Shown here in pieces: positions 36,403 to 40,754 of a stretch of DNA of 64,000 nucleotides. Below the pieces are notes generated by a model that ran no database searches, was not told where the DNA came from, and saw only the letters and a program-made list of their open reading frames with translations. The stretch's first letter is position 1; each line of letters starts with the position of its first letter. Origin of the DNA: Pedosphaera sp. (GTDB lineage: Bacteria; Verrucomicrobiota; Verrucomicrobiia; Limisphaerales; Pedosphaeraceae); assembly GCA_028293325.1 (NCBI GenBank), contig JAQGPA010000054.1:1-64000 (forward strand), given 5' to 3'. Both the position numbers and the translations under genes were made by a program.

Positions 36403-38991
36403 CTATCCCCCAAACAAATCCATCTGCGGCGGTGGCGCAAGATTCTTGAGTTTGTCCCGCTCGGCGCGTTGGCGGGCGGTTTGGCGGACGTTCCCTTCGG
36501 GTGTGAGTTCGGATTCCTCCAGATTATGCAAAATTTCCTTGGCGCGTTCCAGCACCGCCTTGGGCACGCCAGCCAGCCGCGCCACCTGAATGCCGTAACT
36601 CTTGTCCGTCCCGCCCGCCACGATCTTGCGCAAAAACACTATCTGATCGTTCCACTCCCGCACGGCGACGTTGAAGTTCTTCAAGCGTGGCAACCGTCCC
36701 GCCAGTTCCGTCAGCTCATGATAATGCGTGGCGAACAATGTTTTCGCCCCCACCTGGTTGTGCAAATACTCCACGATCGACCACGCCAAACTCAACCCGT
36801 CGAACGTGCTGGTCCCGCGCCCAATCTCATCCAAAATAATCAGGCTGCGCTGCGTCGCGTTATTCAAAATGTTCGCCGTCTCGCTCATCTCCACCATGAA
36901 GGTCGATTGCCCGCGCGCCAGATCGTCGCTCGCCCCGATGCGCGTGAAGATGCGGTCAATCAAATCAATCCGCGCCTCGGCTGCTGGAATAAACGAACCC
37001 GTATGCGCCAACAACGCCAACAACGCCACCTGCCGTATATACGTGCTCTTGCCGGCCATGTTCGGGCCGGTGATCAGCGCGATTTGCAAACCGCCATCCA
37101 ACTGCGCGTCGTTCGGCACGAACCGCTCGTCGCTCAATTTCTGCTCCAGCACCGGATGCCGTCCATCGCGGATGGTCAACACTCCCTCCGCACCCACATG
37201 CGGCCGGCAATAACCATACAGCCGCGCCGTTTCCGCGAACGCGGACAGCACGTCCAATTGCGCCAGTGCGCCCGCCGTTTCCAGGATTTCCGGCAACCGC
37301 GCCAGCACCCCTTCGCGCACCCGCAGGAACAATTCATATTCCAGCTTGATGCTCCGTTCCTGCGCGCCGAGGATTTTCCCCTCCATCTCCTTCAACTCCG
37401 GCGTGATGAACCGTTCCCCGTTCGCGATGGTCTGCTTGCGAATATATTGCGCCGGCACCTTGTCCAGATTGCTCCGCGTCACCTCGATGTAATAGCCGAA
37501 CACCGAATTGAACCGCACTTTCAACGACGCAATGCCCGTCCGCTCGATCTCGTCCTGCTGCAATTTCGCAATCCAATCCTTCCCGCTCCGCGAGGCCGCG
37601 TGCAATTCATCCAACGCGGCATCGAACCCGTCGCGAATCAACCCGCCTTCCTTCAATGCCAGCGGCGGCTCGTCCAAAATCGCGCGCGCAATCAACTCCA
37701 CCAAATCCGGCATCTCGACCAATTGCCCCGCCAACTCCTCCATCAAACCGGCCGCGTGATTCTCCTCGGCCGCTTCATCCCCACCCAGCGCGGGCAACTC
37801 TTCATTCAAAGTTTCACCGCGCGCCGACGCTCCGCTTACCACGCCACTTAAAATCTCCTTCACCGCCGGCACCTGTTCCAACGCCATGCGCAACGCAATC
37901 AAATCCCGCGCGTTCCCGCTCCCCGCGCTCAAGCGCCCAATCGTCCGCTCCAAATCCCGCACCTGCGTTAATTGCACGCGGAATTTCTCCAGCGGTTCTG
38001 AATTCTCAATCCACGCCTGCACCGCCGCCTGCCGCCGGCCAATCGACGACGCATCCGCCAGCGGTTGCGAAAGCCAATCCCGCAAGCGTCGCGCCCCCAT
38101 CGGCGTCACGGTGCGATTCAGCGCGCCATACAACGTGGCGTTGCGCGGCGCATCCCGATGCAACGGCTCCAGAATTTCCAGATGCCGCAGCGTAGTCAGA
38201 TCAAGATTCAGGAAGTCGGACGTCTGATAACACGAAAGCGAAGTAAGATGCGCCAGGTCGCGCCGCAAATGTTGCGTCAGGTAATGCAATATCGCCCCCG
38301 CCGCGCCGATGGCCGCCAATTTGTTCTTCAGCCCAAAGCCATCGAGCGACGCCACCTTAAAATGGTCGCGCACGGCGAACTGCGCGGTTTCCGGCGCAAA
38401 AACCCAGTCGTCATAGGCGTTGAGAATCGGAAAGCTGCTCCGGAGCAATTCATGCAGCCGGGCGGCTTCCGTGGGCAAAATGATTTCCGCCGGACGCAGC
38501 CGCTCCAATTCCGCCAGCAGCGCGGCCTCTCCCTCCACCTCGGTGCATTTAAAACTGCCGGTCGTCACATCCACCAGCGCGAGACCGAACTCCTTGCCCA
38601 GCCCATAAACCGCCGCGATAAAATTATTCCGCTCCGCCTGGAGCATCCGCTCGTCGAAATGCGTGCCGGGACTCAGGATTTGCGTCACCTCCCGTTTCAC
38701 CAACTGCCCGGGCCGCGCCTCCTCCAGTTGCTCACAGATCGCCACCTTGCGACCCGCCTTGAGGATTCGGGAAATATAATTGTTCGCGGCATGGAACGGG
38801 ATGCCGCACATGGGAATCAGTCCGCGTTTGGTCAGCGCCACGTTGAGCAACTGCGCCCCCTGCTGCGCGTCCTCGAAGAACATTTCATAGAAATCCCCCA
38901 GGCGAAACAGCAGGATCGCATCCTTGGGCAATTCGCCCTTGATCCGGCGATACTGCGCCATCATCGGGGTAAGTTCTTTATCCGCAGACAT
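36403..38991 (-). CDS. mutS: DNA mismatch repair protein MutS
   Basis: An 862-residue MutS. The start is ATG 38991, giving SADKELTPMMAQYRRIKGEL and the mismatch-binding motif LLFRLGDFYEMFFEDAQ (the Phe-x-Glu of MutS1, about residues 30-36). The ATPase has TGPNMAGKSTYIRQVALLAL (around 640), LARGQSTFMVEMSE, and SLIILDEIGRGTSTFDGLSL, then FATHYHELTELA. The ORF is open 113 codons further upstream, but that part is translated intergenic repeat. mutL is not in the window. Confidence 0.97.
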   Translation of the reverse strand: MSADKELTPMMAQYRRIKGELPKDAILLFRLGDFYEMFFEDAQQGAQLLNVALTKRGLIPMCGIPFHAANNYISRILKAGRKVAICEQLEEARPGQLVKREVTQILSPGTHFDERMLQAERNNFIAAVYGLGKEFGLALVDVTTGSFKCTEVEGEAALLAELERLRPAEIILPTEAARLHELLRSSFPILNAYDDWVFAPETAQFAVRDHFKVASLDGFGLKNKLAAIGAAGAILHYLTQHLRRDLAHLTSLSCYQTSDFLNLDLTTLRHLEILEPLHRDAPRNATLYGALNRTVTPMGARRLRDWLSQPLADASSIGRRQAAVQAWIENSEPLEKFRVQLTQVRDLERTIGRLSAGSGNARDLIALRMALEQVPAVKEILSGVVSGASARGETLNEELPALGGDEAAEENHAAGLMEELAGQLVEMPDLVELIARAILDEPPLALKEGGLIRDGFDAALDELHAASRSGKDWIAKLQQDEIERTGIASLKVRFNSVFGYYIEVTRSNLDKVPAQYIRKQTIANGERFITPELKEMEGKILGAQERSIKLEYELFLRVREGVLARLPEILETAGALAQLDVLSAFAETARLYGYCRPHVGAEGVLTIRDGRHPVLEQKLSDERFVPNDAQLDGGLQIALITGPNMAGKSTYIRQVALLALLAHTGSFIPAAEARIDLIDRIFTRIGASDDLARGQSTFMVEMSETANILNNATQRSLIILDEIGRGTSTFDGLSLAWSIVEYLHNQVGAKTLFATHYHELTELAGRLPRLKNFNVAVREWNDQIVFLRKIVAGGTDKSYGIQVARLAGVPKAVLERAKEILHNLEESELTPEGNVRQTARQRAERDKLKNLAPPPQMDLFGG

Positions 38992-39360
38992 TGGGAAGAA
39001 ATTTAGACGGCTTTGGCTTGCAGGTCGAAAAGAAACTTTCACCCGACTTTCCCCCCAACTCGGAACTCGGAACGCCGAACCCTGAACCTCTTTGTTTATC
39101 TTCATATTGGCCGTGCGCAAGCACCCTCCCAGTGCCGGAGGCACGAAAGAATTTAGCCCACAGCGCAAGCTGTGGGATTCCGCTCCAAAGCCCCAAGCCC
39201 CTGTCGGGGCGACACAACCATACTGGTCACCGCTCACATTTTCGCGCTTCCAGCGCGGCGAGCCCCACGAGCATCTCCCCCAACTCTGAACGCCGAACTC
39301 GAAACTCAGAACATTCAGTTTAGTTTTCATAATGGCTGTCCGCTAGGACCAGAATAAAAA

Positions 39361-39440
39361 ACTACCTTTAGTTACCTTCCGATACCTTCCGGCTACCTTG
39401 ATTTACTGTCCGACACCTTGATTGACCGTCCGGCAGGACC
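39361..39440 (-). repeat. Decayed copy of the 21-bp coding repeat
   Basis: Plus-strand text CTACCTTTAGTTACCTT, CTACCTTGATTTACTG and CACCTTGATTGACC repeats the unit of the array at 39810-39935. Read on the minus strand it gives VNQGVGQ, a stop, and later RKVTKGS, the same NQG and VTKGS words as the C-terminus of the protein at 39803-40180. It is a degraded duplicate of that gene's 3' end, or a seed of the array. Confidence 0.5.
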
Positions 39441-39473
39441 CTGCCGGTCGGCATTCCCCCAACTCCGATAATG

Positions 39474-39517
39474 CCGCACTCCGAATTTGCCTGCCCCGAA
39501 GGGCGTGGCAGCACCTT
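39474..39517 (+). repeat. 44-bp direct repeat, copy 1
   Basis: Identical in all 44 bases to 39711-39754; includes CCGCACTCCGAATTTGCCTG and GAAGGGCGTGGCAGCACCTT. Lies 193 bp before its twin. Confidence 0.85.
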
Positions 39518-39710
39518 TTGTTTTGCATTCCATCTTCATAATGACCAGTCCGGAAGGACCTTCATAATGGCAGTCCGCTAGGACCTCCGCGTTCTCCGCC
39601 TGCTCCCATTGATTGACCCCGCCTTGTGCCAGGACCCCCTTCCGCCTTCTCCGCGACTCCGCGACTCCGCGACTCCGCGGTTAATTTCCCTTTTCGGACA
39701 ATTCCGCACT

Positions 39711-39754
39711 CCGCACTCCGAATTTGCCTGCCCCGAAGGGCGTGGCAGCACCTT
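39711..39754 (+). repeat. 44-bp direct repeat, copy 2
   Basis: Identical to 39474-39517. It continues straight into GATTTACTCAGTTGC and remnants of the 21-bp unit. Confidence 0.85.
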
Positions 39755-39802
39755 GATTTACTCAGTTGCATAAAAAAACTACCTTTAGTTACCTTGATTT
39801 CC

Positions 39803-40180
39803 CTATGGACTACCTTGATTTCCTTGGTGGCTACCTTTAGCTGCCTGAGGGCTACCTTGATTTACCGGGTGGCTACCTTTAGTTACTTGGGAGCTACCTT
39901 TAGTGACTTGGTGGCTACCTTGATTTGCTGCACGGTAGGCCAGGTGCTGCGCCAGGAGCCGCGGCGCCTCCCACTCCGCATAGCCCCCATGGCACCAGGC
40001 CGACATATTCTGTTCCGAGATCGGCCGCCCGCCGAACCGCTCCGCCAGCACCGCTTGCACCGCCGGCAAGGTATTGAGCCAGGCCACCCTATCCCGGTGC
40101 GAATTCCCATCCTCCAGCCGCCGATTCAACTCCTCCCGCAACGCCGCCGGCAACCGCGCAACTTTCCCATGTCGTATCAT
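39803..40180 (-). CDS. Small Verrucomicrobia-type protein with a heptad-repeat tail
   Basis: A 125-residue protein. The ATG at 40180 is preferred because AGGAG lies ten bases upstream; an in-frame ATG at 40198 adds six residues. The body, GKVARLPAALREELNRRLED, then LNTLPAVQAVLAERFGGRPI and SEQNMSAWCHGGYAEWEA, matches a family I recall as frequent in Verrucomicrobia genomes, perhaps a HTH-type or phage-related regulator; function unknown. The last 40 residues are 7-residue units (QVTKGSS, QVTKGSH, PVNQGSP, QAAKGSH, QGNQGSP) coded by the 21-bp tandem array, and the array runs on beyond the stop. Confidence 0.7.
   Translation of the reverse strand: MIRHGKVARLPAALREELNRRLEDGNSHRDRVAWLNTLPAVQAVLAERFGGRPISEQNMSAWCHGGYAEWEAPRLLAQHLAYRAANQGSHQVTKGSSQVTKGSHPVNQGSPQAAKGSHQGNQGSP
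39810..39935 (-). repeat. 21-bp tandem repeat array, six units
   Basis: Six exact-length 21-bp units on the plus strand, each beginning CTACCTT and alternating GATTT and TAG versions (for example CTACCTTTAGTGACTTGGTGG). They code a 7-residue repeat in the gene at 39803-40180. Partial units continue to about 39780. Confidence 0.85.
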
Positions 40181-40198
40181 AACAACAGCTCTCCTCAT

Positions 40199-40754
40199 TT
40201 ATTTGGTTTGGTTTGTTCATTGACCGAAATTCTTGAACGCCCCTCCGCGACTCCGCACTCCGAATTTGGCAGCCCCCTCCGCGTTCTCCGCTTGCTCCCA
40301 TTTCTCCAGTGCCAGGTCACCCTTGTGGATTCTCCGCGCCTCCGCGACTCCGCGGTTAATTTCCCTTTTCGCATTCCGAACTTTCTTATCGTTCATCATG
40401 GCGATTCAACCACAAACCCAAACCCTTGGATGTCGCTCGTGTCGCTCCTGTCGCTCAGCTTTTTGCGACAAAAACACCCATTCGCCCCTTTGTTTGCAGG
40501 CATGTCATGAGTTCTGATGGCCCAATTTGTGAAAAACCTCGTTTTTGCAATGCCCCATTCCGAACCAATCCCAACGGGATTGAATCATCCAGCCTGGGGT
40601 TGCGAGCAACAGCGAGCTACCCCAGGAAACATCCATCAACCAACCCTTCACTTCCGCGCATCGCGCGGCGAGCCCCGCGAGCATTCTCCGCCTACGCGTT
40701 CCTTTCCAATTGCCTTCCCCTCCCCAAACGCTACGATTCCACCCACCTAACTGC
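40199..40754. other. Intergenic region upstream of the hsd operon
   Basis: No gene seen. It contains CGCGACTCCGCGGTTAATTT with its flanks (29 bases at 40343-40371, identical to 39668-39696), a TGTCGCTC triple repeat near 40430-40455, and GCGCGGCGAGCCCCGCGAGC near 40664, which resembles CAGCGCGGCGAGCCCCACGA at about 39252. The promoter of the operon should lie within the last 150 bases, but I could not pick boxes with confidence. Confidence 0.5.

Follow-up and report, generated by a model that had tools for sequence, protein, structure and literature searches.

Orphan relatives of phage small terminases and the direct-repeat arrays at the ends of their genes

A small gene with a repeat-coded tail

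The window, by which we mean the whole 64,000-nucleotide stretch of DNA analysed here, carries a small reverse-strand gene that has mutS and hsdM as neighbours and whose 3' end is coded by tandem 21-bp units (Table 1). By inspection, the likely start of this gene is the ATG at 40180, behind GAGGAGAG. An AlphaFold model of the protein has helices at residues 12-24, 28-37, 39-48 and 56-86 (block-mean pLDDT of 87-94 for residues 11-80) and a low-confidence tail, in which NQG and TKG words recur at seven-residue intervals. The neighbouring mutS ORF (36403-39330) runs far upstream into repeat DNA, and its conserved protein begins near 38991.

Table 1. Positions of the features around the small gene in the window.
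Feature	Positions	Strand	Basis or remark
Acido-Lenti-1 RNA motif (RF01687)	39131..39176	(-)	51.5 bits
Second, separate AAGGT array with T-run	39356..39434	(-)	39356-39406 matches sister 3' ends
End motif AAGGTAGTTTTTTTATG	39769..39785	(-)	30 genome places, 25 exact and 5 with one mismatch; reversed control 0
21-bp array	39785..39926	(-)	TRF span 39790-39926, 6.6 copies
Orphan Mu-Gp27/small-terminase-like gene with helical N-terminal domain and repeat-coded tail	39803..40180	(-)	ORF 39803-40198
Low-confidence tail, probably disordered, coded by the 21-bp array and replacing the family's C-terminal region	39806..39922	(-)	
Folded N-terminal domain, residues 1-86	39923..40180	(-)	AlphaFold model

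A sequence-only reading of this DNA had noted the tandem units, and both TRF and a repeat finder recovered them. TRF also scores the array at periods of 42 and 63, and the repeat finder gave a constant 21-bp spacing across 39790-39926. Across the 5.5-Mb genome, 9 places carry the 21-bp-spaced core, each within a tail of this gene family, and the reversed control has 0, so the array is not a product of chance. This pattern replaced an earlier array search pattern that was dropped because it gave 2 matches against 18 in its control. A unit of 21 bp corresponds to about two helical turns and is also a multiple of three. The same reading had held that such a unit keeps all frames open; read from the sequence, one of the three frames meets TAG in nearly every unit. 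The NCBIfam model for an xxxLxxG heptad repeat was rejected for the protein (E 0.62).

The array continues one unit beyond the stop at 39803 in the same frame, reading GNQGN-stop (39785-39802) up to a second stop at 39785-39787. This end is still used by two sister copies, L009 and L025 (on C23 and C186), so the unit past the stop marks the ancestral end of the gene, as had been suggested. The end motif, searched as AAGGTWGTTTTTTWATG, was found in 19 other genomes at only 2 places, each with one mismatch and both in G007.

To place the protein in a family we relied on a bridging relative. The window protein itself had no hit against Pfam, hence falls below the curated cut-off of PF11985 (28 bits), and reached E 0.039 against phrog_426. 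Fold searches with its model returned no confident match, a DUF3486 protein ranking second among viral models (E 1.5, probability 0.63). It aligns to the relative L034 with 40% identity over 68 columns (E 3e-14). Two relatives, L034 at 44.7 bits and L135 at 28.3 bits, score above the PF11985 cut-off and match that profile over nearly its whole length, whereas L028 (22 bits) and L026 (20 bits) fall below it. The 'terminase small subunit' profile phrog_426 was matched by L028 (5.1e-6), L026 (3e-7) and L034 (1.3e-11), and by all nine further members (1.7e-9 to 0.0076; 0.00099 or worse in six); at E 0.01, seven of these nine gave no match to PF11985. One long copy from the window's own genome, L024, matched neither profile. 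An alignment of 21 members has 8 invariant columns. By sequence comparison through L034, then, the N-terminal domain of the window protein is homologous to accepted members of PF11985 (Phage_Mu_Gp27), and the protein is, on these alignments, a shortened, orphan relative of phage Mu Gp27/small terminase. Unlike L034 and L135, it retains the N-terminal domain only. The PF11985 C-terminal region is absent from the short copies in this genome (G000), which have repeat-coded tails in its place, whereas relatives in other genomes possess it.

No terminase large subunit lies beside the window gene, and its genome has one distant match, on C122, at 30% identity. A phage-type large terminase adjoins at least four other members, namely L135, where the neighbour passes PF03237, L032 and L150, and also L138, the last of these judged by eye. 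Further small/large terminase pairs are present in G015, in G007 (C6 and C51) and in G026. Other family genes adjoin ordinary genes, encoding a topoisomerase (L026), a homocysteine methyltransferase (L100), a glycosyltransferase (L028) and an AAA ATPase (L137). A search of viral contigs gave no confirmed relative, and tblastn of the N-terminal 84 residues against annotated phages gave none.

Sister copies and dispersed repeats in the same genome

A protein search of the genome returned 18 family matches. Group A comprises the window copy and those on C23, C22, C133 and C186 (the last with an internal deletion), all with NQG/TKG tails; group B consists of six copies, the complete ones ending in a GQGGEFKDSQGSLKDGQGG tail; C167 carries a single short copy; and group C contains six longer proteins. 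Within group A the number of units is about 7 in the window (counting the unit past the stop), 5 on C23, 5 on C186, 3 on C133 and 2 on C22, and the C133 tail is interrupted by a hairpin-type insert. The length variation proposed by the earlier reading therefore stands as variation between copies.

One further case of unit-number difference comes from another assembly. The C186 copy and L074, from a MAG labelled Candidatus Angelobacter, have in common a block of about 470 bp at about 80% identity with the same internal deletion, and their arrays are one 21-bp gap apart. Because the block contains further indels and its outer flanks differ, it is a shared module rather than a proven orthologous locus. 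A search of genome contigs for close relatives found L074 as its one locus, and the presence of an L025-type copy in this MAG would reflect either horizontal transfer or misbinning. The internal deletion in L025 and L074 apparently lies between two CGCGGTTGC direct repeats.

Group B offers a view of how copies arise. L013 and L015 share a 492-bp unit, made up of a group B gene and its array, at 98% identity and with different flanks, which indicates that such cassettes duplicate or move. The gene and array could accordingly be a mobile cassette with a layout like that of REP/RAYT, in which the arrays mark element ends, those standing alone are non-autonomous or leftover copies, and the protein is a helper or a passenger. 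The many copies and their patchy distribution among genomes agree with this, as do the dispersed solitary arrays and the arrays at both ends of two genes (L127 and L030, the only such cases among 46 loci). Yet no target-site duplication was seen in L013/L015, the one pair read closely; the protein is terminase-like and not transposase-like; and the repeats are direct, a repeat finder giving 0 inverted pairs of at least 12 bp in 38800-40600. As in REP/RAYT systems, a gene is flanked by repeats and many solitary repeats lie between genes, but those systems (PMC3733652) have GTAG/CGTC-tagged palindromes and a tyrosine transposase, in place of the direct 10-bp arrays and terminase profile matches found here. 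We consider a mobile cassette rather unlikely as the main explanation.

The spacer beyond the gene holds a second block, about 350 bp away, which the sequence-only reading had described along with the unit past the stop. Both are present, and NQG and VTKGS words can indeed be read in one frame of the far block, separated by a stop. Its interpretation as the gene's own decayed tail failed, however: 39356-39406 is identical at 51 of 51 positions to the 3' end of the C22 sister gene (with one mismatch to the C133 sister), and the frame of the C22 gene over this match reads VNQGSRKVSEGN-stop. The far block is thus a member of a dispersed array family and not, like the unit directly past the stop, an ancestral end.

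Several repeats together form a mosaic over the rest of the spacer. A short dispersed hairpin occurs at 39101-39125, 39326-39350 and 39534-39586, with TCATTATGAAG-like sequence after its paired GTCC/GGAC or GTGC/GCAC arms; one copy lies within the coding tail of L011, and another in L074 that is absent from the matching point of L025. A perfect 44-bp direct duplication (39474-39517 and 39711-39754) and an 8-bp CTCCGCGA array (39649-39679) share the spacer. The Acido-Lenti-1 motif was found closely upstream of a solitary array in 9 of 12 scanned loci; copies are noted for the window and for L054, L059, L060, L066, L067, L068, L071, L072 and L073. It is present in 18 of 20 genomes searched, with 118 copies in G004, which suggests a hairpin scattered between genes and not one individual sRNA gene. 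Rfam gave no match over the 21-bp array itself, with Acido-Lenti-1 and a chance-level RsmY match nearby; at curated thresholds, the 12 loci yielded only Acido-Lenti-1 and one SRP RNA.

Such a mosaic also suits the view that the arrays have no function, repeat-rich intergenic DNA building up beside recently duplicated or decaying orphan genes while drift of the stop lets frames run on into it. When the window copy is compared with three of its group A sisters, the dN/dS values of 0.28-0.94 suggest relaxed constraint and favour this view, whereas the 0.13-0.66 obtained for pairs of group B copies speaks against it. We return to this view below with the arrays of related genera.

Solitary arrays with no family gene nearby are common in this genome and present in G112, G002 and G007; those in G112 and G002 share units with gene-linked arrays. 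A domain-profile scan of stretches in G112 (L155), G002 and G007 found no hidden family remnants near solitary arrays, and re-found the known fragment beside L159. The T-run that accompanies these elements was considered as a terminator, but this was not kept as the main reading because most elements face the gene that follows, 22 of 27 distinct downstream genes being co-oriented with the own-genome elements (two-sided binomial about 0.0015, computed by hand). This hand count is based on crude gene calls and leaves out five elements with no called downstream gene and the L074 element; the co-orientation is more easily reconciled with a leader-side role than with a terminator.

Coding and non-coding arrays differ in their spacing. 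Autocorrelation of three coding tails peaks at a lag of 21 (0.67), lags 10 and 11 giving 0.35 and 0.30, and that of 11 solitary elements peaks at lags 10, 20 and 30 (0.55, 0.54 and 0.49). In 38 T-run elements drawn from the loci examined, one of them from L074, AAGG words are spaced 10 bp apart in 101 cases, 11 bp in 11, 20 bp in 61 and 21 bp in 38. We infer that the coding array is this same one-turn array in a form fixed at two turns, 21 being divisible by three. AAGG phased pairs occur at the 3' ends of 10 of 17 family copies in this genome, all on the gene strand, and of 0 of 33 ORFs in the window; nine of the ten have at least 5 pairs and one has a single pair, and contig ends cut the 3' window of four of the 17 copies. 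On the 5' side the difference is weak (5 of 17 copies against 3 of 33 control ORFs).

Ten-base-pair arrays around related genes

In related genomes, 10-bp arrays of other sequences were found at the 3' ends of family genes and then tested. We defined a period-10 array by a TRF score of at least 40, and took control ORFs of at least 200 amino acids, with wider windows, from six of the same genomes. A first count placed such an array in the flank windows of 21 of 51 loci and of 2 of 175 control ORFs (p 1e-13). Removing two own-genome loci and three second fragments left 46 loci from 21 genomes, which are the best-scoring ones fetched and include some close paralogs, so that they are not independent. 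An array lay within 125 bp of the start or stop at 18 of these 46 loci, in 14 of the 21 genomes. The segments within this distance make up 14.2% of the 143,655 bp covered and hold 23 of the 29 period-10 arrays (binomial p 7e-15). Restricted to the six control genomes, the comparison was 8 of 26 loci against 2 of 175 ORFs, the control windows being wider (p 1e-6). The other 28 of the 46 loci had no array near their ends at this threshold, among them 11 of the 13 from G003, and no array was found near the ends of the four genes with large-terminase neighbours (L032, L135, L138 and L150). Among 34 array rows, a list that also counts own-genome loci, second fragments and two rows that overlap, 18 lie within 100 bp of the stop and seven about 20-125 bp before the start.

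In G003 we saw, by eye, a TTCCTAC(C/G)(G/A)TAGGAA palindrome before the start in 9 of 11 distinct family loci viewed (L083, L084, L085, L087, L088, L089, L091, L092 and L094), once with a mismatch; it is possibly an operator.

The repeat unit changes from genus to genus and the period stays at 10. Many units from different genera nevertheless share a core near AATCAAACC or AATCCGACC, and those of G086 and G132 are AGTCAAGG and AAGGTA, as in the window's own genome; the units TTCGCATATG and TAATCGTGCT do not fit the common core. These observations bear on the absence of function considered above. Other periods are enriched too, as repeat accumulation would predict, period 7 occurring 4 times in 28.8 kb around family genes and 3 times in 369 kb of comparison sequence. 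Period 10 nevertheless exceeds the others, at 24 in the 28.8 kb and 9 in the 369 kb, and its arrays cluster at starts and stops with a period that is kept while the unit varies. We therefore regard an origin in functionless repeat accumulation as unlikely.

Some arrays reach into the last codons, at L149, L126, L028, L136, L127 and L132, where most yield KPNQ- or SNP-type words. Array-coded tails are thus not unique to the window. The earlier reading had proposed a length-variable (contingency) tail, which would be selected for its peptide. The 21-bp unit does preserve the frame and its number varies among copies; the array sequence is also dispersed outside genes at a 10-bp period, however, the tail is predicted to be disordered, and the translated arrays of other genera keep period 10 and hence form no heptad. 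Selection for the peptide seems to us very improbable. Since the same AAGGT repeats are also found with a 10-bp period outside genes, and relatives carry 10-bp arrays of other sequences at their gene ends, the 21-bp array is not mainly a protein feature, and conservation appears to act on DNA spacing. Taken as a whole, the earlier interpretation is partly supported.

We also compared genomes with and without the family. In 146 genomes, 21 of them carriers by profile search, we counted occurrences of three AARSY words spaced 10 bp apart. Carriers had a median of 2.9 such arrays per Mb and the other genomes 1.0 (p 2e-5; Mann-Whitney p 6e-5 when the window's own genome is left out), and 10 of the 11 genomes with at least 4 per Mb were carriers (Fisher p 4e-9, with a threshold chosen after seeing the data). 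At 9-bp spacing the same words gave 2.9 in carriers and 2.8 in the others (p 0.14), with 2 carriers in the top 11. The reversed control pattern was somewhat raised in carriers (2.7 against 2.0, p 0.02); it is as frequent as the pattern itself in G007 and G112, so that the counts of these two genomes show periodicity and not the motif. The sole non-carrier among the top 11, G019, is rich in arrays (with units such as AAAGTGCCAG at 10 bp) and has no family match; it may use another protein for its arrays.

Candidate recognition of the arrays

The reading we favour, at a probability of about 0.5, is that the arrays are the DNA site of the protein itself, a pac- or operator-like module, and that the heptad tail is the translated part of such an array. 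The window gene would then be one of about 17 orphan copies in its genome of a Mu Gp27/TerS-like DNA-binding protein. In many family members, the gene-end arrays of direct repeats one helical turn (10 bp) apart would form the protein's own binding site; a TerS-type oligomer would present its HTH-type domains at one-turn intervals and so touch repeat after repeat along a single face of the double helix. Where an array overlaps the last codons, as it often does, it is translated. In the window's subgroup it seems to have settled into a 21-bp unit, whose translation is the heptad tail that these proteins have instead of the family's C-terminal region, and the length of this tail would drift through gain or loss of whole units. 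Solitary arrays would be further sites, belonging to a regulon, serving as nucleoid marks or left behind by cassettes that moved. The sequences show the family relation via bridging members, the concentration of 10-bp arrays at gene ends, their co-occurrence with the family among genomes and the differences in unit number. We infer that the domain is an HTH, and likewise repeat binding, oligomerization and any regulatory or packaging role. Oligomerization is doubtful for the short form, because it lacks the C-terminal region.

Known terminase systems provide precedents. In the SPP1 pac region, direct repeats span promoters and the start of the TerS gene, and adjacent HTHs of TerS oligomers lie about one B-DNA turn apart (PMC4737164). 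In P22, the pac site is inside the TerS gene (PMC9611059). The arrays studied here likewise consist of direct repeats in or beside the gene of a related protein, and their period equals the one-turn HTH spacing reported for TerS oligomers (PMC4737164). Together with these precedents, the one-turn repeats that border TerS-like genes are in keeping with each gene's product recognizing them. The DNA-binding domain of SF6 TerS binds weakly and with little specificity on its own (PMC4737164), and the mode of DNA binding by TerS is still unclear and controversial, according to a 2022 review (PMC9611059). In contrast to the SPP1/SF6 and P22 systems, the genes here, at the loci whose neighbours were identified as ordinary genes, are orphans; there are many paralogs per genome, and arrays are dispersed at other loci.

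A bolder version, which we think improbable, is that these bacteria have taken over TerS-like orphans together with pac-like sites, each lineage retaining genes that bear one-turn-spaced recognition repeats at their own ends. The same repeats, where dispersed upstream of ordinary genes, would then mark host loci for the protein as a regulator or nucleoid organizer that wraps DNA, or would act as starts from which a resident phage packages host DNA.

If the arrays are the protein's own site, the heptad tail turns from an apparent protein curiosity into a signal of a DNA site, and the arrays scattered between genes gain a candidate binding protein in the TerS-like family. With many copies, and with lineage-specific arrays at gene ends in 14 of 21 genomes, this cellular family would amount to an experiment by nature on how TerS-type proteins recognize DNA, each gene coming with its candidate site. 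Among the open-access matches listed, judged by title and the start of the abstract, no paper describes a link between such arrays and a TerS-like family. The TAACTGA repeats of Beggiatoaceae are similar in being dispersed, short intergenic direct-repeat arrays that have been proposed as regulator binding sites (PMC4679880). They differ in that their period is 7 bp and the abstract names no gene family, whereas the arrays described here have a 10-bp period and go with one family.
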